The notes beneath the pieces were generated by a model that was not told where the DNA came from, did no database searches, and worked only from the letters and a program-made list of their open reading frames with translations. Source: an uncultured Paracoccus sp. (GTDB lineage: Bacteria; Pseudomonadota; Alphaproteobacteria; Rhodobacterales; Rhodobacteraceae). From it: a stretch of 39,405 nt of DNA. Shown in pieces: positions 5,029 through 20,100 of the stretch (positions are counted from its first letter, which is position 1; each line of letters opens with the position of its first letter). The translations under genes and the position numbers were made by a program. The stretch covers positions 1-39,405 of the forward strand of contig NZ_CALMYP010000073.1 in NCBI RefSeq assembly GCF_937873615.1, in the 5' to 3' direction.

Positions 5029-5270
5029 AAATGCGACGCGCAGGGCAGTTTCTCGGTCGCGGCGGGTTATGATGGCGAACCGAACGGGCTGAAGATTCAC
5101 CGCGACGACCGCATCTTCATCGCCGATCTCACCCATGGGTTGATGGTGATGGACCCTGAAAGCGGCCGCGTCGAGCCGTTCCTGACCCACCCCGGGCTGG
5201 ACACTTTCACGGGCTGAACGACCTGCATGTCGCCGCCAATGGCGGTCTCGACTTTGCCGATCAGGGGCAG
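5029..5270 (+). pseudogene. SMP-30/gluconolactonase gene fragment, frameshifted
   Basis: From 5029 the frame reads a piece typical of the SMP-30/gluconolactonase beta-propeller: NGLKIHRDDRIFIADLTHG followed by GRVEPFL. It hits TGA at 5215-5217. Continuing in another frame from about 5206, the sequence reads GLNDLHVAANGGLDFADQG, the next expected segment, so a single-base loss joins the two. Both ends of the gene are missing: about 80 residues remain of the roughly 300 of an intact enzyme. Lactonases of this family commonly serve sugar-acid pathways. Confidence 0.75.
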
Positions 5271-5298
5271 AGGTGGTTCGGTTTCCGCCGCGTTGGCC

Positions 5299-5808
5299 AT
5301 GGTGATAGAGCTGCATCACAGCGGCACATTGTTCGGCCAGCAAAGCCAGGTTCAGGGGCTGCAGTTCGGTGCCGCGCAGATCATCTCGCCGACCGCGCTG
5401 CAACAGGGTGTGATCGACGCGGGCGAGGTGACGCCGAATTCTTGGCGCGGTTCGTCCAGCTATCAGTTCATCAAGGATATCATCCTGACCAATCCTCAAT
5501 ATTCCTTCTACCTGGTCGGTGCCAACAAGATGTGGTGGGACGACATGCCCGTCGATGTGAAAGCCGAAGTCGAGGCTGCTTTCGCCGCCGCGACCGAATG
5601 GAACATGGTCGAAAACGACCGTATCAATGCAGATGACATTTCCTACATGGCGGGCGAAGGTGTGAAGATTCACGAACTGACTCCCGAACAGAGGGCCAAC
5701 TGGGCCGAGGCAATGCAGCCGGTCTGGCAGGAACTGGGTAACGATCTCGTCGGCGACGAGGTCACGGCAAGGTTGAAAGAAATCGGCGGTGTGGCGACCG
5801 GAAACTGA
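5299..5808 (+). pseudogene. dctP: TRAP transporter substrate-binding protein DctP remnant with internal deletion
   Basis: The reading frame opens with a segment typical of the N-terminal lobe of DctP proteins (IELHHSGTLFGQQ, then QGLQFGAAQIISP). It jumps directly to a C-terminal segment (ALQQGVIDAGEV, TNPQYSFYLVGANKMWWDDM). Only about 170 residues remain of about 330, and the signal peptide and central region are gone. The tail to the TGA at 5806-5808 looks complete. An intact DctP delivers organic acids to the DctQM membrane pair; this one cannot fold as a normal two-lobe binding protein. It abuts the SMP-30 fragment upstream, so a deletion probably joined the two. Confidence 0.78.
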
Positions 5809-6150: not shown

Positions 6151-6213
6151 ATGAAATCGGACGCCCGCCTGCGATGGATGAACATTACCGTGGCTTTCTT
6201 GGGCGTTGCGTTT
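6151..6213 (+). pseudogene. dctM: TRAP large membrane subunit DctM, 5-prime stub
   Basis: Two bases after the dctQ stop, ATG 6151 (behind AGGATTGAG) opens a frame that, from ATG 6178, reads MNITVAFLGVAF, the usual start of DctM proteins. Homology stops there. At about 6210 the sequence changes, in a different frame, to the exonuclease domain of the helicase gene. Only about 12 recognisable codons of more than 400 remain. The match is short, so the call leans on gene order P-Q-M. Confidence 0.5.
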
Positions 6214-9200
6214 CCGTCGACCTGGAGGTCGATCCGAAGACCGCAAAGATCTTTGCCCTTGCGGCGGTTCGGTGCGGCGAAGCGCCCGCGATCATGTCGC
6301 GCAAGGGTCGGCTGCATGAAAGTCTCGACCGGCTGGAAAGCGAGCTTGCCAATACGGACCGTCTGATCGGCCACAACATCCTGCGCCACGACCTGCCGCA
6401 TCTGGTGGCGGCGCGGCCCCGGCTGGCGGCGCTGGCGCAGGGGGCGATCGATACGTTGTGGCTGAACCCGCTGGCCTTCCCGCGCAATCCCTATCACCGT
6501 CTCGTGAAGCATTATCACGACGGGCGCCTGCAAGCCGGTCATGTGAACGATCCCGAACTGGATGCGCGGCTGGTCTTCGAGGTTCTGCGCGATCAGCTTG
6601 CCGCCTTGCGACAGCTGAATGACGACAGGCCGGACGATCTGCGGGCCTATCACTTCCTGACCACGCGGGCCGAGAATATGGACGGCTTCGACGCCGTGTT
6701 TCGTCTTGTGCGTGGTGCGCCCGCGCCGCCTGCCGCCACCGCCCATGAGGCGATCCTGCGTCTGCTGGCCGGACAGGCCTGCAAAAGCCGCGTCGGGCAG
6801 ATGTTCGAGCGTTTCGCGGACCCAAAGCTTGGCTGGCCGATGGCCTATGCGCTGTCCTGGATCTCGGTCGCGGGCGGCGATTCCGTCATGCCGCCCTGGG
6901 TGCGGATGCAGTTCCCCGAAGCCGCACGGATCGTCCACGATCTGCGCGACAATGACTGCGACAGTCAGGATTGCGACTGGTGCCGCGAGCACAGCGACCC
7001 CGGTAGGGCGTTGAGCCGCTGGTTCGGCTTCGATGCCTTTCGCCCGCAACCCGCGGACCCCCAGACAGGTCGTCCGTTGCAGGAGCGGATCGTCACCGAG
7101 GCAATGCGCGGTCAGAGCCTTCTGGGCATCCTGCCGACCGGCACCGGAAAATCCGTCTGCTACCAGATCCCGGCGCTGACGAAATTCGACCGGACAGGGG
7201 CGCTGACCGTTGTGATCTCGCCCTTGGTCGCGCTGATGGCGGATCAGGTGCAGGGGATGGAGCGGGCGGGAATTTCGTCAGCGGTCACGATCAACGGCAT
7301 GTTGTCGATGCCAGAACGACAGGACGCGCTGGATCGGGTGCGGATGGGCGATGCGGCCATGCTGCTGATTTCACCCGAGCAGTTGCGAAGCATCTCGGTG
7401 CGCTCGGTCCTGCGGCAGCGCGAGATCGGGCTGTGGGTGCTGGACGAGGCGCATTGCGTGTCGAAATGGGGGCACGATTTCCGGCCCGACTACCGCTATA
7501 TCGGTCGGTTCATCAGGGAATCCTCGGGCGATGCCCCGCCTGCGCCGGTTCTCTGCCTGACCGCGACGGCCAAGCCAGAGGTGGTGGCGGATATCCGAGA
7601 GCATTTCCGTGCCCGGCTTGGCCTCGACCTGCTTCTGCTGGATGGCGGCGCGGTGCGCACCAACCTGAGTTTCGAGGTGCGCGAGACACAGCGCAACACC
7701 AAGCTGGCCGATATTCTGGATGTGATCGAGACCAGGCTGCCGGCCGAGGGCGCATCCGGCGCCGTGGTCTATTGCGCGACACGCAGCGCCACCGAACGGG
7801 TGGCGGAATTCCTGAAACAGCAAGGGCTGGCCGCCGAGCATTTTCATGCCGGGCTGACGGCCGAGGCCAAGCGCGACGTTCAGGAACGCTTCCGCGTCGG
7901 CGCGTTGCGGATCATCGCCGCGACCAACGCCTTCGGCATGGGGATCGACAAGCCCGATATCCGGCTGGTCGTGCATGGCGATATTCCCGGATCGCTGGAA
8001 AACTATCTGCAGGAGGCTGGTCGTGCCGGACGCGACCGCGAACATGCGAATTGCGTGCTGCTGTTTTCGGCAGAGGATGTCGAGCGGCAGTTCTCGCTCT
8101 CGGCGCGCTCGCGACTGGCGCGGCACGAGATCGGGGCGATCCTCAAGGCCTTGCGGCGGCTGAACGAGAAGACCGCGAAGAACGGCGAGGTCGTCGCGAC
8201 ACCAGGCGAGATTGTCCGGGCTGAACGCGATCAGGACTTCGTGCGCGACAGTGCCACCGACGACACCCGCGTCAAGACCGCTGTGTCCTGGCTGGAGGAG
8301 GCTACGCTGCTCAGCCGCGAGGAAAACCGGGTGCAGGTCTTTCCCTCCTCGCTGCGGATCCGCAAGCTGGAAGAGGTCGGGGCGATCCTTGAACGCGCCG
8401 CGATCACCGGCACCCGTCGCAGGCAGTTGACGGAGATCGTCCGTCACCTGATGAATGCGCCGCCCGATCAGGGCATCTCCACCGACGAACTGACCGGCGT
8501 CAGCGGGTTGAGCGGGGCCGGGCTGAACAAGGCCATGAGCGATCTGGAGGCGCTTGGCATCGCCAGCAACGATCTGGCGGTGACGATCTTCGTTCATGTC
8601 GGCGTCGAAGGTCATTCGCAAGCGCGTCTTGCAGGGGCCTCGCGGCTTGAAGGCGCGCTGATCTCGTTGATGCGCGAGGCCGCCCCGGATGCCGATGACA
8701 GCGAGGCCATGCCGTTGCATCTGGCCGAGACCTGTCAGGCGCTGCGAGATCGTGGCCATGCCGCCGCGCGGCCCGATATCGTCGAGAAACTGCTGCGCGG
8801 CATGGCCCGCGACGGGCGCGATCAGGATGGCGGGCGGGGCAATCTGCACCTGCGCAAGGCCTCGCGCAATACGCTGATGGTCAAACTGCAACGGTCATGG
8901 GCCGTGGTTGACGAGACGGCCAGGATCCGGCGTCTGGGCGCGGAACTGCTGCTGGCGCATCTGATCGGCAAGGTCAGGAAGGGCACGCGCGGCAAGGATC
9001 TGCAGGTTGAAACCAGGATGGGCGACCTGCTGGCCAGCCTGACCGGCGATGCCTTGCTGCGCGGCGCTGTGAAGGATGCGAACAAGCTGATGGAACGCGC
9101 GCTCTTGTGGCTGCACGAGCAGGAGGTGGTGACGCTTGGCAAGGGCCTGACGGTGTTCCGCCCGGCGATGACCCTGCATCTGCGCCCGGGGCGCGACCTT

Positions 9201-11276
9201 TTCACGGTCGAGCATTTCGCCCCGCTGGAGGACCATTACACCGAACAGACCGTCCAGACCCATGTGATGGCGGCCTATGCCGAACAGGGGCTAGCCGAGA
9301 TCGCACGTGCGCAGAACCTGTCCGAGGATTACTTTCTTCTCGACCGCGACACGTTCCAGAAGAAATGGCTGCCGGGTCGCGGCATGGAGTTGCAGCGCCA
9401 GACCACCGGCGCGTCGTGGAAATCCATCGTCGAGGATCTGGGCAATCCGGTCCAGCAGAAGATCGTCTCGGACAGCCGCGAACAGACCAATGTGCTTGTG
9501 CTGGCCGGTCCCGGCTCGGGCAAGACGCGGGTGCTGGTCCACCGCATCGCCTGGCTGGTCCGGGTCCGGCGCGAGGACCCGCGCGGTATCCTCGTGCTGG
9601 CCTATAATCGCCACGCCGCCGCCGAGATCCGCGCCCGTCTGCGTATGCTGATCGGCGATGATGCAGCCTTTATTACCGTCTCGACCTGCCACGCGATGGC
9701 GATGCGGCTGGTCGGGGCCAGCTTCGCCGGTGCCGCGGGCGATGACCACGATTTCGATGGCATCGTGATGGAAGCGGTGCGGCAACTGAACGGTGAAGGG
9801 CTTTCGAGGGCCGAGGCCGAGGCGCAACGCGACGCGCTGATTCAGGGCTATCGCTGGATTCTGGTCGATGAGTATCAGGATATCGGCCCCGAGGAATATG
9901 CTCTGATCGCTGCCATTGCCGGGCGCTCGCTGGACGATCCCGACCTGCGGCTCAGCCTGTTTGCGGTCGGCGACGATGACCAGAACATCTATGCCTTCGC
10001 CGGTGCCTCGGTCGATTTCATCCGCAAGTTCGAGGACGACTATCGGGCGAAGCCGGAATTCCTGATCGAGAATTATCGCTCGACCCGCCACATCATCGAG
10101 GCGGCGAACAGGGTCATCGCCCCTGCCGCAGCGCGCATGAAAACCGGCCATGATATCGTTGTGGATCGAAAGCGCGACAGGCAGCCGCCGGGCGGGGAAC
10201 TGGCGAAGCATGATCCGGTCGCGCAGGGTCGCGTTCAGGTGTTGCAATGTGCCTCCGGTGCGGCGCAGGCCGTGGCGGCGGTCGATGAGCTTTTGCGCCT
10301 GTCGCGCCTGCCGGACCTTGATGAGGATTGGAACTGGTCGCGCACGGCCATCATCTCGCGCGACTGGAGGGGGCTGGGGCCGGTCCGGGCCTATGCCGAG
10401 GCCATGGGCATCCCGGTCGAGATGGCCAATGAAAGCCTGCCCAATATCTGGCGCCTGCGCGAGATGCAGAATTTCGTTGCGGCGCTAAGGCAGGATCCTG
10501 CCGCACGGCTTGCGATCCGGGATCTGCTCGACCTGCTGAACCGGCAGCCGCGCAACCGCTGGATCGACCTGATCGCCGAGGGTATCGCCGGGCTTGCGCG
10601 CGAGATCGCGGACAAGGCGATCCCCGTGCCCGATCTGATCGAATGGTTCGCCGAATGGGCACGCGACACGCGGGGCGAACAGCGCGGGCTGCTGCTCTTG
10701 ACCGCGCATCGCGCCAAGGGGCTGGAATTCGACGATGTGGTCATTCTGGACGGCGGTTGGGACAGGCCGTCAAGGGGCGAGGATGCCGACGCCCCGCGCC
10801 GCCTTTTCTATGTCGCCATGACCCGTGCCCGGCGCAGTCTGGCGGTGATGACGCAGGGCGCGCACCCGTTCCTCGTGCCGCATGAGGGTCTGCTGCAAAG
10901 GCCGGTCGATCCGGATCGCAGTCGCCTGCAAGCCCGGTCCGAACAATATGTGATGCCCGACATGAAGCTTGTCGATCTGTCCTGGGCCGGGCGGCTTGGC
11001 GAGGGCAGCCCGTCGCTTGGCGCAATTGTCGCCAGCAAGGTGGGTGACCCGGTCACGTTGAGCCGCAGCCAGGGTCGCTGGTTCATCCGTGACAAGAACG
11101 GCGTGGCACTTGGCCGCATGTCGAATACCTTTTCCCCGCCAGAGAACCTGACCTTCCTGCGCGGCGAAATCGGCGCCCTCATACGTTGGCGCAAAAGCGA
11201 TAACGAGGAAGAATACCGCAGCAGCATCCGCCGCGCGGAATGGGAGGCGGTGCTGCCGGAACTGGTCTTCGGATAG
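6174..11276 (+). CDS. Exonuclease-RecQ-UvrD fusion helicase, 1700 residues
   Basis: A multidomain DNA-processing enzyme. Residues about 12-140 resemble a DEDD 3-prime-5-prime exonuclease (SVDLEVD with D16 and E18, [12 protein letters not shown] near 66-76, third acidic motif near D130). Residues about 290-900 form a RecQ helicase: Walker A [12 protein letters not shown] (about 317), [20 protein letters not shown] (about 420), [11 protein letters not shown] (about 612). Residues about 1080-1640 form a UvrD/PcrA superfamily 1 helicase: AGPGSGKTR (about 1111), VDEYQD (about 1231), [14 protein letters not shown] (about 1265), [13 protein letters not shown] (about 1510) and YVAMTRARR (about 1545). 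The first dozen codons overlap the dctM stub in another frame and ATG 6174 lacks a clear ribosome-binding site, so the native N-terminus may be lost. Domain assignment is firm; role (repair or anti-phage defence) is inference. Confidence 0.9.
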   Translation: [1700 protein letters not shown]

Positions 11277-11669: not shown

Positions 11670-12206
11670 ATGATGACCAAACTCACCGACACCCAGACCC
11701 TGATCCTGACCCGCGCCAGCGCCCGGCCGGGCAATCTCGGCCTGCCGCTGCCAGGCGGGCTGCACGGCGCGGCAGCGAAGTTGGCCATCGGGCGGATGGT
11801 AAAGTTGGGACTTATCGAGGAGGTCGACGCCAACATCCGGCGCGGCGAGCCGCTCTGGCGCGAGACCGGTGACGGGCATGGCACCACGCTGATCGCCACC
11901 GAAGCTGGGCAGGTCGCAATCGGCATTGATCCGGTGGTGGTCAAGGCGTTGGCGGGGTTGCGGGATGCCAAGCCCGAGGTGATCGCCGCCGCCCTGCGCC
12001 CCGGCACCAAACAGGCGCAGTTGATCGCCATGCTGCAGGCACCGGGTGGCACCACAGTCGCAGAGATCGCAGTGAAGGTGGAGTGGCGGTCGCACTCCAT
12101 TCGGGGCGCGATCTCCGGATCGCTGAAGAAGAAGCTTGGTCTGCGGGTGATCTCAGAGAGAAACCCGGCTCGGGGTCGGGTCTACAGGATTTGCCTCGCC
12201 GAGTGA
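11670..12206 (+). CDS. DUF3489 domain-containing protein
   Basis: A small protein (178 codons, start ATG 11670 or 11673 behind a GGAGCC element) of a family common in alphaproteobacteria and usually found near recombinases and other mobile-region genes. The N-terminal part begins MTKLTDTQTLILTRA and contains GEPLWRETGDGHGTTLIATE, a hallmark stretch. The C-terminal DUF3489 part (about 115-177, KQAQLIAMLQAPGGTTVAEI through GLRVISERN) looks like a winged helix. The function is unknown; DNA binding is inference from the fold. It stands alone here, without the recombinase or DUF2924 partner often seen, and is followed within 60 bases by the tctA stub on the other strand. Confidence 0.8.
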   Translation: MMTKLTDTQTLILTRASARPGNLGLPLPGGLHGAAAKLAIGRMVKLGLIEEVDANIRRGEPLWRETGDGHGTTLIATEAGQVAIGIDPVVVKALAGLRDAKPEVIAAALRPGTKQAQLIAMLQAPGGTTVAEIAVKVEWRSHSIRGAISGSLKKKLGLRVISERNPARGRVYRICLAE

Positions 12207-12234: not shown

Positions 12235-12303
12235 TCAGGGCACAGCATCATCAGTTTGTCGCTCGACGCTCATGCCCGAAAGAACGTCGAGAAAGATCTG
12301 CAT
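12235..12303 (-). pseudogene. tctA: TctA 5-prime stub
   Basis: The tctB stop and this ATG overlap as TGATG (12301-12305), the usual arrangement of tctB-tctA. The first codons read MQIFLDVLSGMSV, matching the start of TctA large permease subunits. After V13 (12265-12267) the sequence is unrelated and stops at TGA 12235-12237. About 490 residues of the permease are missing, so the tripartite transporter encoded here cannot work unless TctA is supplied from elsewhere. Confidence 0.68.
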
Positions 12304-12776
12304 CAGAAGAAGCCCTCGGTAAGTGTCGGCAGGCGCACGCCGAAGATGCCCGCGAAGAGGCCATAGAACAGCGCCGTAACCCCTACCGCATAGAGCGCGA
12401 ACATATGGGGTCGCTTCAGCTCGAACCGGAAGATCAGGAACAGCGCGGACGAGAAGATCAGCGTGGCGAGCCAGTAGCCCAGCGGACGGAACAGCGCGAT
12501 GTATCCGGCGGTGGCGACGATCACCACCAGCGGTCGGATCATCTCACGCGGGTTGCCGTCGGCGGTGGGTTTGCGGAATTCACCGACAAAGACCACGGCC
12601 AGCGCGACATACATGAGGATGGCGGTGAGGATCGGGACCGAGCGCGAGCTCATTTCGCCGCTACCCGCGAATTGCGAGTGGATGTCGAAGGCTGCGGCGA
12701 GATAGACGGTCGTGACGATCAGTAGAAAAAGGGGCAACGGGACTCCGGTCCTGCAAATCGGGGCACGGTCGGCCAT
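12303..12776 (-). CDS. tctB: Tripartite tricarboxylate transporter small subunit TctB
   Basis: A membrane protein of about 157 residues with four hydrophobic segments (PLFLLIVTTVYLAAA; VPILTAILMYVALAVVF; PLVVIVATAGYIALF; a long C-terminal pair including LYAVGVTALFYGLFAGIF). It is the small subunit that pairs with TctA in secondary uptake of di- and tricarboxylates fed by periplasmic TctC. I chose ATG 12776, which has GGAG six bases upstream, over a longer start at 12803. It lies downstream of tctC. The reading frame is intact, yet both partners are broken. Confidence 0.83.
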   Translation of the reverse strand: MADRAPICRTGVPLPLFLLIVTTVYLAAAFDIHSQFAGSGEMSSRSVPILTAILMYVALAVVFVGEFRKPTADGNPREMIRPLVVIVATAGYIALFRPLGYWLATLIFSSALFLIFRFELKRPHMFALYAVGVTALFYGLFAGIFGVRLPTLTEGFF

Positions 12777-12857
12777 CATGGTCTCCGGGTAAGTGGGCGG
12801 CACCGAGACGGACAGGTGCCGCCGCTTGGATCAGGACATAGGTCGTGGTCGGCAGAG

Positions 12858-13829
12858 TTATTTCGACAGAACGCCGGCTTCCACCAAGGCGTCCATCTCG
12901 GTGAACAGGCCCTGCGCGGTGTCGTTGGCCCAGGTGTCGAGCTCGTCACCCACGAGCCAGTTCGGGGTCACGCCGATGGTGGCGAGCCAGTCCTGGAATT
13001 CGGCGGATTCATAGGCCGCCTGATAGGCGGCTTCGATCTTGGCCACCACGTCCTCGGGGGTGCCTGCGGGTGCGGCAATCACGATGAACGACCCGTTGAG
13101 CAGGTCGACGCCGGCTTCTTCGGCGGTCGGCACGTCGTAGGTTGGGTTCTTGGCGTCCGAAAATTCAACGATGCCACGGGCGGTGCCGTCTTCGATCAGG
13201 TTGGCGAAGTCGCCGAGCGAGGTCATGACCACATCGACTTCGTCCGAGAGCAGGGCTTCTTTCTGCGGGGCGGCGCCACCGGGGTAGGAGACGATCTTGA
13301 ACTCGGTGTCGGTCAGCTTCTGAAGCTGGAGCAGGGTAAGATGCACGCGGCCGCCAAGGTTCTGGACCCCGATGCGGACCTTGCCGGGATCGGCCTTCGC
13401 CGCAGCGAGGAGGTCGTCGAGCGAGTTGTAGTCGGAATTCGCGTCCACGGTGATCGCGTCGGCTTCGCTGGTGATGCGGGCGATCAGGTCGAGCTTGTCC
13501 ATCTTGTAGCTGGGCAGCATCCCCTGCCATGGCACAGTCACGACCGAATCGTAGGTCAGCGCGCCGAGCGTGTAGCCGTCGCCCTAGGCGCTCATCACCT
13601 GACCGACGCCGGTGGCAGAGTTGCCGCCTTCGATGTTCTCGACATAGATCGTGCCGCCGAAGTTGTCTTCGGCCAGGGTGGTCACCTTGCGGACGATACC
13701 GTCGGTGCCGCCACCTGCGCCCCACGGCACGATCATGCGCACGTCACGCTCGGGATATTCGGCCATGGCGGCGAGCGGCACGAGGACCGTGGTGATCATG
13801 GCGGCGGCGCCGATGAGAGTGCGTTTCAT
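12858..13829 (-). pseudogene. tctC: Tripartite tricarboxylate transporter binding protein TctC with in-frame amber codon
   Basis: A periplasmic solute-binding protein of the Bug/TctC family. Start ATG at 13829 behind GGAGGAGA, signal peptide MKRTLIGAAAMITTVLVPLAAMA, then YPERDVRMIVPWGAGGGTD, a family hallmark. At codon 82 a TAG (13584-13586) interrupts the gene between VMSA and GDGYTLGAL. Upstream and downstream parts are in the same frame and together give the normal length of 323 codons. A single base change from a Lys, Gln or Glu codon explains it. Unless suppressed, the product is an 81-residue fragment. A sequencing error is possible but would be coincidental beside the tctA truncation. 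Confidence 0.85.
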
Positions 13830-14482: not shown

Positions 14483-15388
14483 TCAGTCGGCCGGCAGGTC
14501 CATCCGGCTGGTCAGAAAATCGAGCTCGGCCAGATCGGCTTCGGTCAGTTTCGGCCCCGGTCCGCGCAGTGCGTTGGAGGTGAGCGCCCCGCGCCGCCGC
14601 ATCATTTCCTTGCGCAGCGCGATGCCCCATTGCCCCTGCGCCTCGTGTTTCAGCAGCGGCAGATAGCGGTTGAACAGATCATGTGCCTCGGCGCGTTTGC
14701 CGGCGCGCATCAGGTCATAGACGCCTGACAGCATCTCTGGATAGCTGAAGCCCGCCATCGGGCCATCGGCGCCACGCTCCATTTCCTGCACGAGATACTG
14801 GCCGTTGTTGCCGGTGAGGATACGGATCGGACGGGACAACTCGGCGCGCATCCGGGTGATCTTGGTCGGCGAGGGGAAGTCCTCGGACTTGATGACCCCG
14901 ATCTGGGGGAAGGCGGTGATCAACCGGTCGATGGCGGGCACCGACATCACTACACCTGAGGTCGCCGGGAAGTCCTGCAACACGGTGGGCACGTCGCCGA
15001 TCCGCTCAAAGACCGCGTCGAAGTAGCGGATGAGGTCCTCGTCCGTCCTGATCCCTGCGGGGGGACAGATCATCACGGCATCGGCCCCCTCGGCCATGAC
15101 ATCGCGCGTCACCTCGACCAGCGTGGCGAGGTTAGGGTGCGACACGCCCGCGATGATCCGATGACCTGTCGCGGCGGCAACATAGCGCGCGGCCACCGCG
15201 ACGGTTTCGTCGACCGTCAGCTTCTGCGCCTCGCCGGACACGCCGAGCACGGTCAGCCCCTGCGCACCGTGGCGATAGTAGAAGGCCGAAAGCGTGTCGA
15301 TGCTGGCATAGTCGACGGCGCCATCGTCGAGAAATGGCGTCTGCGCGACGACATGGAGGCCCGTGGTTTCCGATAGGTCTTTGGACAT
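14483..15388 (-). CDS. Dihydrodipicolinate synthase (DapA) family aldolase/dehydratase
   Basis: A class I aldolase-fold TIM barrel of 301 residues. The Schiff-base lysine is K167 in GVIKSED. The GVSGEAQ loop near residues 49-55 replaces the usual GxxGE of the family. The tyrosine that normally sits in a YNxP motif before the lysine is absent: the segment reads VLQDFPATSG. The active-site chemistry may therefore differ from DapA and from KdgD nearby. GGGAGAG stands seven bases before ATG 15388. It is about 80 bases downstream of the GntR gene on the same strand. The likely role is a retro-aldol or dehydration step on a keto-deoxy acid; the substrate is unknown. Confidence 0.82.
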   Translation of the reverse strand: MSKDLSETTGLHVVAQTPFLDDGAVDYASIDTLSAFYYRHGAQGLTVLGVSGEAQKLTVDETVAVAARYVAAATGHRIIAGVSHPNLATLVEVTRDVMAEGADAVMICPPAGIRTDEDLIRYFDAVFERIGDVPTVLQDFPATSGVVMSVPAIDRLITAFPQIGVIKSEDFPSPTKITRMRAELSRPIRILTGNNGQYLVQEMERGADGPMAGFSYPEMLSGVYDLMRAGKRAEAHDLFNRYLPLLKHEAQGQWGIALRKEMMRRRGALTSNALRGPGPKLTEADLAELDFLTSRMDLPAD

Positions 15389-15466
15389 GATCTCTCCCTT
15401 CGCGGGCCGGTGACCCGCGTTCCTTGGCTGTGAGTGCGTGGTATGTGGCGACGGTTTCGTCAGGTG

Positions 15467-16246
15467 TTAGGTAAAGTAATCCTCGTGCCGCGCGCGGTAT
15501 TCGTCTGCCCAGTCTGGGTCCTTGTGGGTGTGGAAACGGATTTCCCCGACCGCGCGATCCACATCGCCGCTATCGATTGCGGCGACGATGCGCTCGTGTC
15601 CGTCGATGATCGTGGCAACGCGTTCGGCCGAGAAGGTCTGCAACCGGCGCACCCGGTCCATATCGGTGGTCTGCGAGCGCAGGAGTGCGTGCAGATTGGG
15701 GTGGCCGACGCCTTCGAACATGAGGAAGTGGAAATATTCGTCGAGTTCCTGAAACCGGCGAAGCTGGGTGTGATCGGGGGCGACCTCGCGTTGCATGGCG
15801 ATCACGCTTCTCAGCTGGGCGATGGTATCAGGCTTGGGCGCTCGGGTCAGCGTCATGACCACTTCGCTTTCCAGCGCCTGCCGCAGAAACAGCGCCTCGC
15901 GGATCTGGGCGAGGTTGATCTTTGTCACCAGCGTCCTGGACTGCGGGTAGATGCGGATGAGACCGTCCTGATCGAGCCGCTGCATGGCGTCGCGCAGGGG
16001 GGTCTGGCTCACGTCATATTCGCGGGCGAGATCGGCGCGGGTCAGTGCGGTCCCCGGCGGTAGTTCCAGCGACAGTATGCGCTGGCGCAGGTCGTCATAG
16101 ATCCGGGAGGATGCCATGGGGCGCCCCATCGCGCCCTCGAAGCGCATCATGTCCAGTGCCATGTTCATCTGTCTCATCGTGCCGAGCCGCCCATCGTCGT
16201 TAAAAAGTGCTTTCCAGATAACCGCATTTCGGGGCCGGTTGACCAT
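15467..16246 (-). CDS. GntR family regulator, FCD domain
   Basis: A transcription factor with an N-terminal winged helix (SSRIYDDLRQRILSLELPPG, then LAREYDVSQTPLRDAMQRL) and a C-terminal FCD ligand domain. Candidate metal/ligand residues are the Asp and His of LDEYFHFLMFEG, the His of DGHERIVAAID and the His pair in FHTHKD. The annotated start (16246) gives 259 residues with about 43 before the helix-turn-helix; ATG 16177 or 16117 may be the real start because no ribosome-binding site decides. It is divergent from the kdgD operon and very probably controls it through the inverted repeat at 16247-16268, possibly with tctC. The ligand would be a sugar acid or its keto-deoxy derivative. Confidence 0.87.
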   Translation of the reverse strand: MVNRPRNAVIWKALFNDDGRLGTMRQMNMALDMMRFEGAMGRPMASSRIYDDLRQRILSLELPPGTALTRADLAREYDVSQTPLRDAMQRLDQDGLIRIYPQSRTLVTKINLAQIREALFLRQALESEVVMTLTRAPKPDTIAQLRSVIAMQREVAPDHTQLRRFQELDEYFHFLMFEGVGHPNLHALLRSQTTDMDRVRRLQTFSAERVATIIDGHERIVAAIDSGDVDRAVGEIRFHTHKDPDWADEYRARHEDYFT

Positions 16247-16268
16247 ACTGATAAACTAAAATATTAGT
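16239..16268 (+). promoter_or_regulatory. Promoter and overlapping operator of the kdgD operon
   Basis: TTGACC (16239-16244) and TATTAG (16262-16267) are spaced by 17 bases and point to kdgD. The inverted repeat ACTGATA-N8-TATTAGT (16247-16268, six of seven pairs) fills the spacer and -10 box, so the divergent GntR protein could block the promoter. The layout is the same as at tcuAB. The 16247-16528 leader contains the possible small ORF annotated separately. Confidence 0.6.
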
Positions 16269-16415
16269 GCATGACAAGCCCCCCGGCGGGATGGCGTTGG
16301 CCCTTTGCGGCTTGGGCGGACCGCTGAGATCCGTGATTCGCGGGCTGGAAGGACAGGGAGTACCGGCGCCGGGGCACTGCTTCGGCTGGCGCCACGGCAT
16401 GAGGAGGCCACTGAT

Positions 16416-16532
16416 ATGGACGGCGCAAAAGCAGTAACCGCGCCCGCGACCAACGACATTCCAGCAGGCACGCATCACCAGCCCAAACCCCACAACCCGC
16501 AGTACCAAGACAAACAAGGAGACATACCATGA
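16416..16532 (+). CDS. Possible 38-residue leader ORF coupled to kdgD
   Basis: ATG 16416 has a strong GAGGAGG (16401-16407) eight bases upstream. The frame ends with a TGA that overlaps the kdgD start as ATGA (16529-16532), the classic sign of translational coupling. The peptide is hydrophilic, rich in Pro, Gln, His and Asn near its end (HHQPKPHNPQYQDKQGD), with no membrane segment and no family I recognise. The kdgD gene also has its own AAGGAGA. Good signals but no homology. Confidence 0.42.
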   Translation: MDGAKAVTAPATNDIPAGTHHQPKPHNPQYQDKQGDIP

Positions 16533-17434
16533 TCGCACCCGCCAACCTGCGCGAGATCATTCGCCACGGACTTCTGTCCTTTCCAGTCACCCCCTTCGAC
16601 GCCGAAGACAACTTTGCGCCGAAGCCGTTTCAGGCCCATCTGGAATGGCTCAGCCCGCACAAGGTCGCGGGCCTGATCGTCGCGGGCGGCACGGGCGAGA
16701 TGTTCTCGCTCACCCCGGAGGAAATCGTGAATGTGGTGCGCGCCGCACGAGAAGTGGCAGGCGATGCGCCGGTGATCGCGGGCTGCGGTTATGGTGTGCG
16801 CGTGGCCTGTGACCTCGCGCGAGAGATCGAGGCGGCGGGCGGCGACGGCATCCTGCTGCTGCCGCATTACCTGACCGAAGGACCGCAGGAAGGCATCGCG
16901 AACCGTATTCGCGCGGTCTGCAAGGCGACCAATATGGCGGTCATCGTCTATAACCGCGGGCAAGCGCAGATTACGGCAGAGACGCTGGAGCAACTGGCCG
17001 ACGAATGCCCGAACCTGATCGGGTTCAAGGACGGCTCCGGCGACATCGACACCGTGCGCCGGATCACCGTGCAGTTGGGCGACCGGCTGTCCTATATCGG
17101 CGGGATGCCGACTCACGAATTGTTCGCGCAGGCCTATCGCGGGGCGGGGATGCCGACCTATTCCTCGGCCGTGTTCAACTTTGTCCCGGAAACCGCGCTG
17201 GAATTCCATGGCGCCTTCCTTGCGGGCGACAATGCCAAATGCGAGCAGATGCTGCGCGACTTTTACTATCCCTTCGCCAAAATCCGCGACCGCAAGCCGG
17301 GCTATGCGGTGTCGGCGGTCAAGGCGGGCGTGGCGCTGCGCGGGTTCGAAACCGGGCCGGTGCGTGCGCCGCTCACCGACCTGACCGGCGAAGAGGTCGA
17401 GATGATGCGCGACCTGATCAAGGGCCGGAACTGA
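16529..17434 (+). CDS. kdgD: 5-dehydro-4-deoxyglucarate dehydratase (KdgD type)
   Basis: A DapA-superfamily enzyme that dehydrates and decarboxylates 5-keto-4-deoxyglucarate to 2-oxoglutarate semialdehyde (EC 4.2.1.41). It has 301 residues with VAGLIVAGGTGEMFSLTPEE near 46-65, the active-site Tyr Y141 in IVYNRG, Schiff-base Lys K167 in GFKDGSGD, and GMPTHELFAQAYRGAG and TYSSAVFNFVPE, stretches characteristic of KdgD rather than DapA. AAGGAGA supports the ATG. It is the first long gene of the sugar-acid operon and overlaps the next gene by one base (TGATG). Some close relatives act on keto-deoxy pentonates, which would fit the dehydratase encoded downstream. Confidence 0.88.
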   Translation: MIAPANLREIIRHGLLSFPVTPFDAEDNFAPKPFQAHLEWLSPHKVAGLIVAGGTGEMFSLTPEEIVNVVRAAREVAGDAPVIAGCGYGVRVACDLAREIEAAGGDGILLLPHYLTEGPQEGIANRIRAVCKATNMAVIVYNRGQAQITAETLEQLADECPNLIGFKDGSGDIDTVRRITVQLGDRLSYIGGMPTHELFAQAYRGAGMPTYSSAVFNFVPETALEFHGAFLAGDNAKCEQMLRDFYYPFAKIRDRKPGYAVSAVKAGVALRGFETGPVRAPLTDLTGEEVEMMRDLIKGRN

Positions 17435-18390
17435 TGTCCATCGGCCCGGTCGCCGTTCTGGAGCCTGCCAGCGCCGAGATGCGGGCGCGGATCGAATACC
17501 TTTGCGAAGGGTTCGATCTGCGCTTCATCGATGACGTGACCGACGAGGACATGTCGGCCGCGCTGGACGGGGCCACCTATGCCGTGACCCGTGGGCTGCG
17601 GTTTCCCGAAGCCGTTCTGGCGCGGGCCGAGTCGCTGAAGCTGGTTCATCAATGGGGCACGGGCGTGGACGGTATCCCGCTCGATGCCTGCCGGGGGCGG
17701 GGGATTTCGGTCGCCCGGTCGCCGGGGATGAACGCGCCCACGGTGGCCGAGGCGACGCTGACCCTGATGCTCGCCACGCTGCGCCGTCTGCCGCAGGTGC
17801 AGGCCGCGTTCCGGGGCGGTCAGTGGAACCAGCCGGACCTGTGGCGCGAGGCACGGGATCTCGGGGCCTGTCGTGTCGGCCTTGTCGGTATGGGCGCCAT
17901 CGGTCAGGAGGTTCTGACCCGGCTGCGCGGCTTTGGCTGCGAGGTCGCCTATACTAGGCGGTCGGGGCCGGACGCGTCCATCGACGCAGCGTTCATGGCC
18001 TTCGAGGACATGCTGGGCTGGGCCGATGTGCTGTCGCTTCACCTGCCGCTGACGGATGCGTCCCGGCATCTGATCAACGCCGAAACGCTCGCTGCGATGA
18101 AGCCGGGGGCGGTGCTGATCAATACCTCGCGCGGGGCGCTGGTCGACGAGGCGGCGCTGGTCGCGGCGCTGACCGAAGGGCCATTATCCGCAGCCGGGCT
18201 CGACGTGTTCGAGGTGGAGCCGGTCAGCGGGCCGAACCCGTTGCTAGGGCTTCCCAACACCGTGACCCTGCCGCATGTGGCCGGGCGCACGTTGGACAAT
18301 TTCGACCGCATGGTGCGACATTGGTCCAGCAATATCCGCGCTCATGCCGAGGGGCGCGATATCGATCCTGCCTGTGTCGTGATCCCCTGA
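17434..18390 (+). CDS. D-2-hydroxyacid dehydrogenase family protein
   Basis: An NAD(P)-dependent 2-hydroxyacid/2-oxoacid oxidoreductase, 318 residues. The Rossmann motif GMGAIG is near residue 152. Catalytic Arg is in NTSRGALV (about 231), Glu in DVFEVEP (about 258) and His in LPHVAG (about 280). The ATG overlaps the kdgD stop (TGATG at 17432-17436), so it is co-translated with kdgD. It is a different gene from the family member at the window start: the N-terminal domains differ greatly. It could reduce or oxidise a keto acid of the sugar-acid pathway; the substrate is not deducible. Confidence 0.87.
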   Translation: MSIGPVAVLEPASAEMRARIEYLCEGFDLRFIDDVTDEDMSAALDGATYAVTRGLRFPEAVLARAESLKLVHQWGTGVDGIPLDACRGRGISVARSPGMNAPTVAEATLTLMLATLRRLPQVQAAFRGGQWNQPDLWREARDLGACRVGLVGMGAIGQEVLTRLRGFGCEVAYTRRSGPDASIDAAFMAFEDMLGWADVLSLHLPLTDASRHLINAETLAAMKPGAVLINTSRGALVDEAALVAALTEGPLSAAGLDVFEVEPVSGPNPLLGLPNTVTLPHVAGRTLDNFDRMVRHWSSNIRAHAEGRDIDPACVVIP

Positions 18391-18438
18391 GATCGATGGC
18401 ACGGGACGTAAGGCAAACCTGGTGACTGAGGGGAGGAC

Positions 18439-20100
18439 ATGATGACCGAGTATAGGGACCGCACGGGCGGCCGGGTTCTGGTGGATCAACTTCTGATCCA
18501 CGGGGCCGACTGCGCCTATTGCGTGCCGGGGGAAAGCTACCTCGAAGTGCTGGACGCGCTGCATGACGTGAAGGATCGCTTCACGCTCTACAATGCCCGG
18601 CACGAAGCCGGCGCGGCGGAAATGGCCGAGGCATATGGCAAGCTGACCGGCAAGCCCGGCATCTGCATGGTCACGCGCGGTCCGGGGGCCTGTCAGGCTG
18701 CGGTGGGCGTTCATATCGCCTATCAGGATTCGACCCCGATGATCCTGCTGGTCGGTCAGGTCGGGCGCCCCACCCTGGACCGGGAAAGCTTTCAGGAGAT
18801 CGACTTTCGCCAGATGTTCGCGCCCGTCGCCAAATGGGCCGCGCAGATCGACAGTGCAGAGCGGATCCCGGAATACATGGCGCGGGCCTTCCGCGTGGCG
18901 ACTTCCGGTCGGCCCGGTCCCGTGGTTCTGGCCCTGCCGGAGGATATGCTGACCGATGTCGTGCGCGTTGCGGATGCGAAGCCCTATGTCCCGAGCGTTC
19001 CGGCGCTGCGTGCGCAGGATGCGGCAGCGGTCATGGCCACGCTCTCGGTGGCGAAGCGCCCGCTGGTTCTGGCCGGTGGATCCGGCTGGAGCGACGAAGG
19101 CGCGGCGGCGCTGCTTGCCTTTGCGCAGGCCAACGAACTGCCGGTCGCGACGAGCTTCCGGCGGCAGGACCTGATCGACAACCGGTCGGAGTACTATGTG
19201 GGCGACTTCGGCACCGGGGTCGCGCCGAGCCTTGTCAAACGGCTGGCCGAGGCGGACCTGTTGCTGGTCATCGGCGCGCGGCTGGGCGAGATCACCACCA
19301 GGACCTACAGCACGTTGTCGGTGCCAACGCCGGCGCAGACATTGGTTCACATCCATGTGGATGCGGACGAGATCGGGCGCGTCTATTCCCCCGATCTGTC
19401 GGCGGTTTCCGGCCCCGATGCGGCGCTCGCCGCGCTCATCGAGCAACCCGCCACTCCTTGCGACGGCGTCTGGCGCAGGACGCTGCGCGACGAATATGTT
19501 GCGGATGCCGAGCCGCCGCCGCACGACTTTCCGCTCGATATGGGTGCGGCGATGGCCGAGGTCCGCGACCTGATCCCCGCTGACGCTGTGATCACGCTCG
19601 ACGCGGGAAACCACACCGGCTGGGCGCAGCGGTTCCTGCGCTATGGCCGCCCCGGCCGTCAGATCGGCTCCACCTGCGGCTCCATGGGCTATGCGGTGCC
19701 TTCGGCGGTCGCCGCCTCGCTCGCCAAGCCGGAACGGCAGTCCATCGCCTTTGTCGGGGACGGCGGCTTCATGATGGCGGGGATGGAGATCGCCACCGCC
19801 GCGCAGCATGGCGGGCGGCCCATCGTGCTGGTCTTCAACAATGGCACCTATGGCACGATCCGGATGCACCAGGAGCGCGAGCATCCCGCCCGCATTTCCG
19901 GCACCGATATCGTCACCTCGAACATCGGCCAGATCGCGAGCGGACTCGGCGCGGCCCATACGCGGGTTACCGAGACCGCGCAGTTCAAGCCCGCGCTGCT
20001 GGCCGCCTTCGACCATGACGGGCCGACGGTGATCGAGCTGATGACCGATCCCGAACAAATCTCGACCCGCACGACCGTATCCCGGTTGCGGGGGCAATAA
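18439..20100 (+). CDS. Thiamine-diphosphate enzyme of the acetolactate synthase large-subunit family
   Basis: A 553-residue ThDP-dependent enzyme with the three usual domains. The cofactor-activating Glu is E56 in NARHEAGAAEMAE. The Mg-ThDP motif runs from GDGG (about 440) to NNGTYG (about 467), and GSMGYAVPSAVAASLA lies just upstream. No small regulatory subunit gene follows, and the position among sugar-acid genes argues against a role in branched-chain amino acid synthesis. A decarboxylase, carboligase or sulfoacetaldehyde-type activity on a 2-keto acid is more likely. GGGAGGA precedes ATG 18439. It lies 48 bases after the hydroxyacid dehydrogenase and 14 bases before the ilvD-family gene. 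Confidence 0.86.
   Translation: MMTEYRDRTGGRVLVDQLLIHGADCAYCVPGESYLEVLDALHDVKDRFTLYNARHEAGAAEMAEAYGKLTGKPGICMVTRGPGACQAAVGVHIAYQDSTPMILLVGQVGRPTLDRESFQEIDFRQMFAPVAKWAAQIDSAERIPEYMARAFRVATSGRPGPVVLALPEDMLTDVVRVADAKPYVPSVPALRAQDAAAVMATLSVAKRPLVLAGGSGWSDEGAAALLAFAQANELPVATSFRRQDLIDNRSEYYVGDFGTGVAPSLVKRLAEADLLLVIGARLGEITTRTYSTLSVPTPAQTLVHIHVDADEIGRVYSPDLSAVSGPDAALAALIEQPATPCDGVWRRTLRDEYVADAEPPPHDFPLDMGAAMAEVRDLIPADAVITLDAGNHTGWAQRFLRYGRPGRQIGSTCGSMGYAVPSAVAASLAKPERQSIAFVGDGGFMMAGMEIATAAQHGGRPIVLVFNNGTYGTIRMHQEREHPARISGTDIVTSNIGQIASGLGAAHTRVTETAQFKPALLAAFDHDGPTVIELMTDPEQISTRTTVSRLRGQ

Follow-up and report, generated by a model that had tools for sequence, protein, structure and literature searches.

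What is the task of a bacterial protein that joins two different helicase motors to an exonuclease-like domain in one chain? The question is raised by a stretch of 39,405 nucleotides (hereafter the window) from an uncultured Paracoccus sp., which is contig 73 (NZ_CALMYP010000073.1) of a 3.86 Mb source genome assembled in 74 contigs (G000). An initial annotation, made from the letters of the window, had described one gene as a triple fusion of a DEDD exonuclease, a RecQ helicase and a UvrD helicase, and had considered a role in defense. The analysis reported here bears out the triple fusion: a single open reading frame (ORF) that begins with ATG and runs uninterrupted for 1700 codons encodes one 1700-residue chain, in which the motors are recognized by Pfam and the exonuclease by an alignment profile. 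We propose, with moderate confidence, that the product is a mobile, stand-alone, single-protein helicase-nuclease that would act on foreign or parasitic DNA, presumably for defense.

Overall architecture and conservation

The three predicted modules share one chain, an architecture seen in six phyla. Of 54 homologues, the 46 with ORFs of at least 1400 amino acids (aa) served for the count of motif residues; eight shorter ones, most of them truncated at contig ends, were left out. All 46 retain the Walker lysine and the DE pair of each motor, the arginine finger of RecQ, and the motif III glutamine and motif IV arginine of UvrD, and the earlier statement that the Walker and helicase motifs are intact thus holds. 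A pseudogene reading of the window copy was rejected on the strength of the open frame and these motifs. The source genome also encodes a separate RecQ (676 aa, 41% identical to fusion residues 280-636) and, within an 804-aa frame, a separate UvrD-like helicase.

Table 1 Features of the fusion gene and its borders in the window.
Feature	Position	Strand	Basis or remark
Exonuclease-RecQ-UvrD fusion protein	6174..11276	+	1700 aa; sole full-length copy in source genome
DEDD exonuclease-like domain (predicted), residues 8-150	6195..6623	+	DinG exonuclease profile match and residue conservation
Four-cysteine motif C203, C262, C267, C270 (C-x58-C-x4-C-x2-C)	6780..6983	+	Between exonuclease and RecQ core
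RecQ-type superfamily 2 (SF2) helicase core, residues 286-640	7029..8093	+	Pfam, TIGR00614, motif residues
Middle region, residues 641-1088; likely winged helix near 764-845	8094..9437	+	Weak PDB profile matches
UvrD/Rep-type superfamily 1A (SF1A) helicase core, residues 1089-1565	9438..10868	+	Pfam, NCBIfam, PDB profile, motif residues
C-terminal tail, residues 1566-1700, no recognized domain	10869..11273	+	Least conserved part
193-aa ORF, probably end of TRAP-transporter solute-binding gene (by eye)	5227..5808	+	Left border of insert
DUF3489 gene directly downstream of fusion	11670..12206	+	Pfam DUF3489, 4.6e-24
Remnant tricarboxylate-transporter operon: TctB 12303-12803, TctC 12858-13829 with in-frame stop	12303..13829	-	Right border of insert

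The N-terminal DEDD exonuclease-like domain

Taken alone, the N-terminal 300 residues of the window copy had no Pfam match at E ≤ 10, and when members of the family were scanned singly, three of 43 touched the DNA-polymerase B exonuclease model at a marginal level (best E 0.029). A profile built from the 43 N-terminal sequences gave nine matches in the PDB. The top match was the DinG 3'-5' exonuclease (E 1.1e-5), followed by exodeoxyribonuclease III entries (0.0072-0.075) and T7-type DNA polymerase (0.047-0.37); one HIV gp120 entry (0.3) is noise. The lack of a significant exonuclease profile at the N-terminus, which the initial annotation had named as an outcome that would speak against it, was not encountered, as the match becomes significant once the alignment is used.

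The four metal-binding acids of the DEDDh enzymes (D-x-E, D, D) are found throughout the fusion family, three further relatives included: D16 and E18 in all 43 homologues with a residue there (three are gapped), D73 and D130 in all 44 (two are gapped). The catalytic histidine, which precedes the last aspartate by five residues in DEDDh enzymes, is replaced by asparagine in 42 of 44 sequences and by serine in the other two; the window residue at this position, N125, aligns with the DinG histidine. The exonuclease label thus stands by the profile and the acids, with the usual histidine as an important exception. Additional invariant positions in the 43-row alignment are H67, D93, T94, L95, H108, L110, K112 and P127. 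The pattern D-x-E, G-H-N, D-T-L, N/S-x-P-x-x-D is kept in the Deinococcus, Pseudanabaena and Nostoc plasmid relatives, and H108 is invariant in 44 of 44 sequences but is a glutamine in the Deinococcus relative. The conservation of the acids and of this pattern across relatives marks the predicted N-terminal module as a conserved domain of the DEDD type whose fifth residue is not the standard one, and not as a decayed relic. Because the DEDDh histidine is asparagine or serine throughout the aligned family, activity of the domain is not a given, and nuclease action despite the substitution is presumed.

The helicase motors and the remaining regions

Pfam identified DEAD (residues 300-472, E 4.2e-32) and Helicase_C (528-621, 4.2e-20) in the RecQ half, and UvrD-helicase (1091-1182, 7.8e-38) and UvrD_C (1507-1559, 2.5e-13) in the UvrD half. 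The first motor passed the NCBIfam sub-family model TIGR00614 recQ_fam with 299.6 bits versus a cut-off of 219.8, and displays the features of the RecQ family, namely an SF2 core, the aromatic-rich loop and motifs I-VI, with each of ten motif residues found in at least 45 of the 46 homologues. The RecQ equivalog models TIGR01389 and PRK11057 scored far under their cut-offs. No zinc-binding, RQC or HRDC domain of RecQ was found among the Pfam matches at E ≤ 1, nor is there a conserved cysteine cluster C-terminal of residue 640. As judged by these undetected domains, the low equivalog scores and the missing cluster, the predicted protein carries a RecQ-family core yet is not RecQ itself. The second motor has the UvrD N and C domains and the motif residues of the UvrD/Rep SF1A group, and did not reach the cut-offs of the UvrD, PcrA and Rep equivalog models.

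All four cysteines of the motif that precedes the RecQ core are present in 39 of the 46 homologues. Five distant homologues have no more than a single cysteine across the four columns; the called ORFs of the remaining two start past some or all of these positions. The motif may hold a zinc ion or an iron-sulfur cluster. The middle region yielded 17 weak matches to PDB profiles, by name mostly winged-helix proteins, with a best E of 0.019. The C-terminal tail has the lowest mean identity of all parts in close homologues (43.8%), and its seven PDB profile matches (best E 0.25) agree on no consistent fold. By eye, the tail has a HIRAN-like look.

Distribution and mobility

Long relatives of the fusion occur in Pseudomonadota, Campylobacterota, Bacteroidota, Cyanobacteriota, Deinococcota and Verrucomicrobiota, the last in a metagenome-assembled genome (MAG); in Planctomycetota only pieces cut by contig ends were found. 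In counts that all include the genome of the window, the fusion was matched in 12 of 125 genomes of the genus (E ≤ 1e-80), 59 of 394 of the family (E ≤ 1e-200) and 15 of 398 of the phylum (E ≤ 1e-150), a patchy distribution on which a core repair gene was rejected. Presence and absence also vary within a genus, as one genome carries the fusion and another does not (G358, G815). The gene tree, the placements of which are given without branch support values, mixes taxa: Hyphomicrobiales appear in three places, Ruegeria and Cereibacter in two each and Rhodovulum in at least two. The copy in CP059262.1, titled an Exiguobacterium profundum MAG, is nested among Rhodobacteraceae, and this MAG is probably mislabeled.

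One genome of the genus carries two copies of near full length. In another the only match is a fragment that lies away from any contig end, and a third has a fragment that runs up to a contig end. An in-frame stop interrupts two copies, which belong to different genomes. These broken copies suggest loss. The stops were seen in G015 and in the second copy of G030, and the fragments in G042 and in G035 (contig end).

Sixteen plasmid records contain a single place that covers at least 80% of the query. Full-length copies are also present on two prophage-like IMG/VR contigs. In L157 (1-13088) ABC-transporter genes flank the fusion on one side, and DUF3489 flanks it on the other, together with genes that by eye look terminase-like and ParB-methylase-like; in L156 (1-17367) the fusion lies near an integrase end and close to genes that by eye resemble VRR-NUC and a ParB methylase, with DUF3489 in the stretch. 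A prophage may thus be a vehicle of the gene. Matches were found in 76 phage records, none of which covers 80% of the query at one place, and a phage-replication gene was ruled out on this count. The fusion is an accessory gene that moves horizontally. Confinement of the homologues to core chromosomal contexts, the other outcome that had been named as contrary to the initial annotation, did not occur, as the gene is accessory and often on plasmids.

Gene neighborhood

Genes were called with a simple codon-usage caller made for this analysis. The neighbor set comprised 605 proteins of at least 100 aa in 60 stretches, of which 137 from 50 stretches were sampled. A genome-average control drew 256 proteins (127 sampled) from five single-contig congeners, in which 20 stretches were taken and 19 used; the one dropped was all N, and another was partly N. 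A same-replicon control comprised 204 proteins (132 sampled) from 17 stretches, namely nine genome contigs, seven of eight plasmids and the far part of the window. At the threshold used for neighbor scans (E ≤ 1e-30), and in tallies that do not name the member proteins, 66 PADLOC families were matched near the fusion, versus one in the genome-average and 21 (six names) in the same-replicon sample. The first 25 of the 66 families include DrmA, PDC-S36/S37, Hhe, MkoA, ZorC and DpdE, together with an oligonucleotide cyclase, a phospholipase effector, type I and II methyltransferases and a type III restriction enzyme. Read as proteins, the excess over the genome-average control is significant (p ~ 0.04). 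Pfam tallies of the fusion-neighbor and genome-average samples revealed no dominant family.

Seven large near neighbors, picked by size and nearness, were compared with PADLOC. Three matched PDC-S37/Hhe, two type IV restriction and one a DpdE/ZorD-like helicase; the seventh, 1149 aa at 15152-18598 (-) of L009 and 52 bases from the fusion, had no PADLOC match at 1e-20. The comparison was extended to 66 fusion stretches, which are partly dependent (a single locus accounts for two of them, and three resemble one another at 97-98% over 8.7-14 kb), and 71 control stretches, which include the masked (N) stretch. PDC-S37-like genes were found in four versus none, and type IV restriction in four (one partial) versus one, both counts being biased by queries taken from fusion loci. 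DUF3489 was found in six versus none (Fisher p ~ 0.011), several within a few hundred bases; this association is a hint only, because DUF3489 is common elsewhere in the genus too. Giant PDC-S37/Hhe-like genes lie near four fusions in differing orientations (L010 4728-9719, L024 3990-9878, L035 3980-9493 and L044 1882-6621, the last by tblastn only), and a loose functional pairing with the fusion is possible.

On annotated plasmids, a type I restriction-modification operon adjoins the Allochromatium copy and a CRISPR-Cas locus is near the Thiothrix copy, and toxin-antitoxin genes lie near the Rhizobium, Cereibacter, Sulfitobacter and Aliarcobacter copies. The nearby features listed for the Bacteroides copy include no defense or toxin-antitoxin genes. 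No fixed partner emerged when 637 neighbors of 63 loci were clustered, as no neighbor is widely shared within 10 kb; the widest shared groups look generic by eye (an ABC transporter at 11 loci, SDR at seven loci, small regulators). An obligate multi-gene system was ruled out, since only such generic-looking groups are shared. The fusion is set among islands and mobile elements in which defense genes abound, a context that by itself is no proof of a defensive role.

Proposed function and alternative roles

The scheme that we infer for action on foreign DNA extends to motor direction, DNA substrate, nuclease activity and defensive purpose. The winged-helix middle region and the RecQ motor would engage branched or partly single-stranded DNA, such as replication or recombination intermediates of phages and plasmids. 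The duplex would be opened by both motors, RecQ and UvrD/Rep, for which 3'-5' movement is expected, and the N-terminal DEDD domain would trim the freed 3' ends, by which the invader would be destroyed or blocked. This opening-and-trimming scheme is the simplest that fits the 3'-5' movement of both the RecQ and UvrD families with a predicted 3'-5' exonuclease placed in front. DinG offers a precedent for the exonuclease step: the Bacillus subtilis enzyme digests single-stranded DNA in the 3'-5' direction, an activity that its D10A E12A mutant lacks (PMC12525004). More tentatively, the fusion could be a so far undescribed single-gene enzyme of immunity or inter-element conflict in at least six phyla, which would combine RecQ, UvrD and a DEDD exonuclease with a new active-site flavor, that is, asparagine or serine for the catalytic histidine, with K112 and, in nearly all members, H108 kept nearby in sequence.

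Counted in favor of defense are the conserved active sites, the patchy presence, the taxa-mixing tree, the plasmid and prophage copies, the PADLOC-matching neighbors, and the genome's own RecQ and UvrD-like genes. Several observations weigh on the other side. Versus the same-replicon control there is no significant excess of defense matches (Fisher p ~ 0.79 for at least eight versus at most six proteins, a conservative reading of family lists, families not being proteins), so that the defense idea of the initial annotation gains from the context when measured against the genome average and not when measured against the same replicons. The Sulfitobacter and Aliarcobacter plasmids carry toxin-antitoxin genes in their control stretches too. 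The ten neighbors of the window fusion scanned with Pfam are metabolic and transport genes plus DUF3489. Among the best 25 of the 92 PADLOC-DB 2.0.0 families matched by the fusion there is no whole-protein model; the best stretch of each lies within one motor, and none covers more than one. Finally, the exonuclease domain is without the usual histidine in 44 of 44 sequences.

The loss of the defense signal versus the same replicons also speaks for a rather unlikely alternative, in which mobile elements use the fusion as a helper in replication, recombination or repair: plasmids and prophages would process their own intermediates of replication or recombination with it, and its defense neighbors would reflect shared habitat only. 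The gene is on plasmids, adjoins ParA/ParB and replication genes in Aliarcobacter, lies in Bacteroides a matter of kilobases away from single-strand-binding and Par genes, and is accompanied on prophage-like contigs by methylase-like and DUF3489 genes. Such a helper is harder to reconcile with the lack of any neighbor, replication gene or other, widely shared within 10 kb. Moreover, eight tested proteins (seven phage-type from L156/L157 plus DUF3489) include few that recur in other fusion stretches, and near-complete single-place copies are missing from all 76 matching phage records. The replaced histidine favors a further reading, compatible with any role, in which the N-terminal domain is a relic that binds DNA without catalysis, leaving the protein to work solely as a double helicase or translocase. 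This is unlikely, as the four acids are invariant across the aligned phyla and P127 and K112 are retained as well, which would not be expected of a relic, and the mean identity of the exonuclease domain among close homologues (65.8%) is similar to that of the middle region (66.0%). Quite improbable is a chromosomal accessory enzyme for DNA repair, similar in kind to WRN or DinG, that would help cells under DNA damage and have spread through chance gene transfer: the exonuclease-RecQ order matches that of WRN, DinG is the closest PDB match of the N-terminal domain and a replication-stress factor (PMC12525004), but 85-96% of the sampled genomes are without a match at the thresholds used, the fusion is extra to the genome's own RecQ and UvrD-like helicase, and several copies have defense or mobile neighbors.

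If the preferred reading, an enzyme directed at foreign DNA, is correct, a compact helicase-nuclease would be added to the bacterial arsenal, encoded by one gene with no evident partner and therefore testable in a single plasmid experiment. The DEDD exonuclease would then either work without its usual histidine or have been converted into a strongly selected DNA-binding module.

Surroundings of the window copy

Upstream of the fusion, the window also contains a gene for an FAD enzyme and a gene of the isocitrate/isopropylmalate-dehydrogenase family. The initial annotation had placed the fusion in a rearranged spot between truncated transporter genes next to DUF3489, which comparison with a congener (G010) corroborates. 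There the gene order is TctC, TctB and a 506-aa gene read by eye as TctA, and in the window TctB instead stands next to the DUF3489 gene and the fusion; the 506-aa gene of G010 has no match in the window. The tricarboxylate-transporter operon beside the insert is damaged and decaying, since TctC is interrupted by an in-frame stop and TctB lacks the neighbor that it has in G010. A clean empty site was not found in congeners, because their flanking genes stand in differing orders. Two DHDPS-family genes, at 14483-15388 (-) and 16529-17434 (+), lie about 1.1 kb apart in opposite orientations and are part of a cluster whose pieces reappear in congeners in other orders.

Comparison with known systems

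The literature searched, which was not exhaustive, contained no description of an exonuclease-RecQ-UvrD protein, of the asparagine or serine active site or of the cysteine motif, although these may be in print. The parts are known; the combination, the active site and the cysteine motif are apparently new. Public plasmid annotations are generic ("RecQ family ATP-dependent DNA helicase", "ATP-dependent DNA helicase RecQ", "UvrD-helicase domain-containing protein"), and the fusion has therefore been hidden in plain sight.

Like DinG of the Bacillus subtilis and Staphylococcus aureus type, the fusion joins an N-terminal DEDD 3'-5' exonuclease-type domain to an SF2 helicase. DinG, in contrast, has one XPD-like helicase and a histidine at the aligned position, whereas the fusion has asparagine or serine, RecQ as its SF2 motor, and UvrD in addition. 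Werner syndrome helicase-exonuclease (WRN) carries a DEDDy exonuclease, RQC and HRDC. Its order, exonuclease before RecQ core, is that of the fusion, whose RecQ core matches WRN structures with E ~ 2e-48; RQC and HRDC were undetected in the fusion by Pfam, which places it outside the WRN group, and WRN is without a UvrD motor. The fusion thus joins a WRN-like front half to a UvrD motor.

Among defense proteins, DpdF and PsyrT are the best PADLOC matches of the RecQ core (5.2e-113 and 6.8e-91). Their models match only about residues 274-671, and partners were sought by a Pfam scan of ten window neighbors. The UvrD core matches the models of GajB and UvrD-like defense helicases (best 9e-50). Gabija is a two-gene system in which GajB acts with GajA; in the fusion, by contrast, the UvrD motor is one part of a single large protein. 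RecBCD and AddAB employ a PD-(D/E)XK nuclease and two SF1 motors. The fusion would resemble them in uniting motors and nuclease in one DNA-degrading machine, and differs in being a single chain with a DEDD nuclease-type domain and RecQ plus UvrD.

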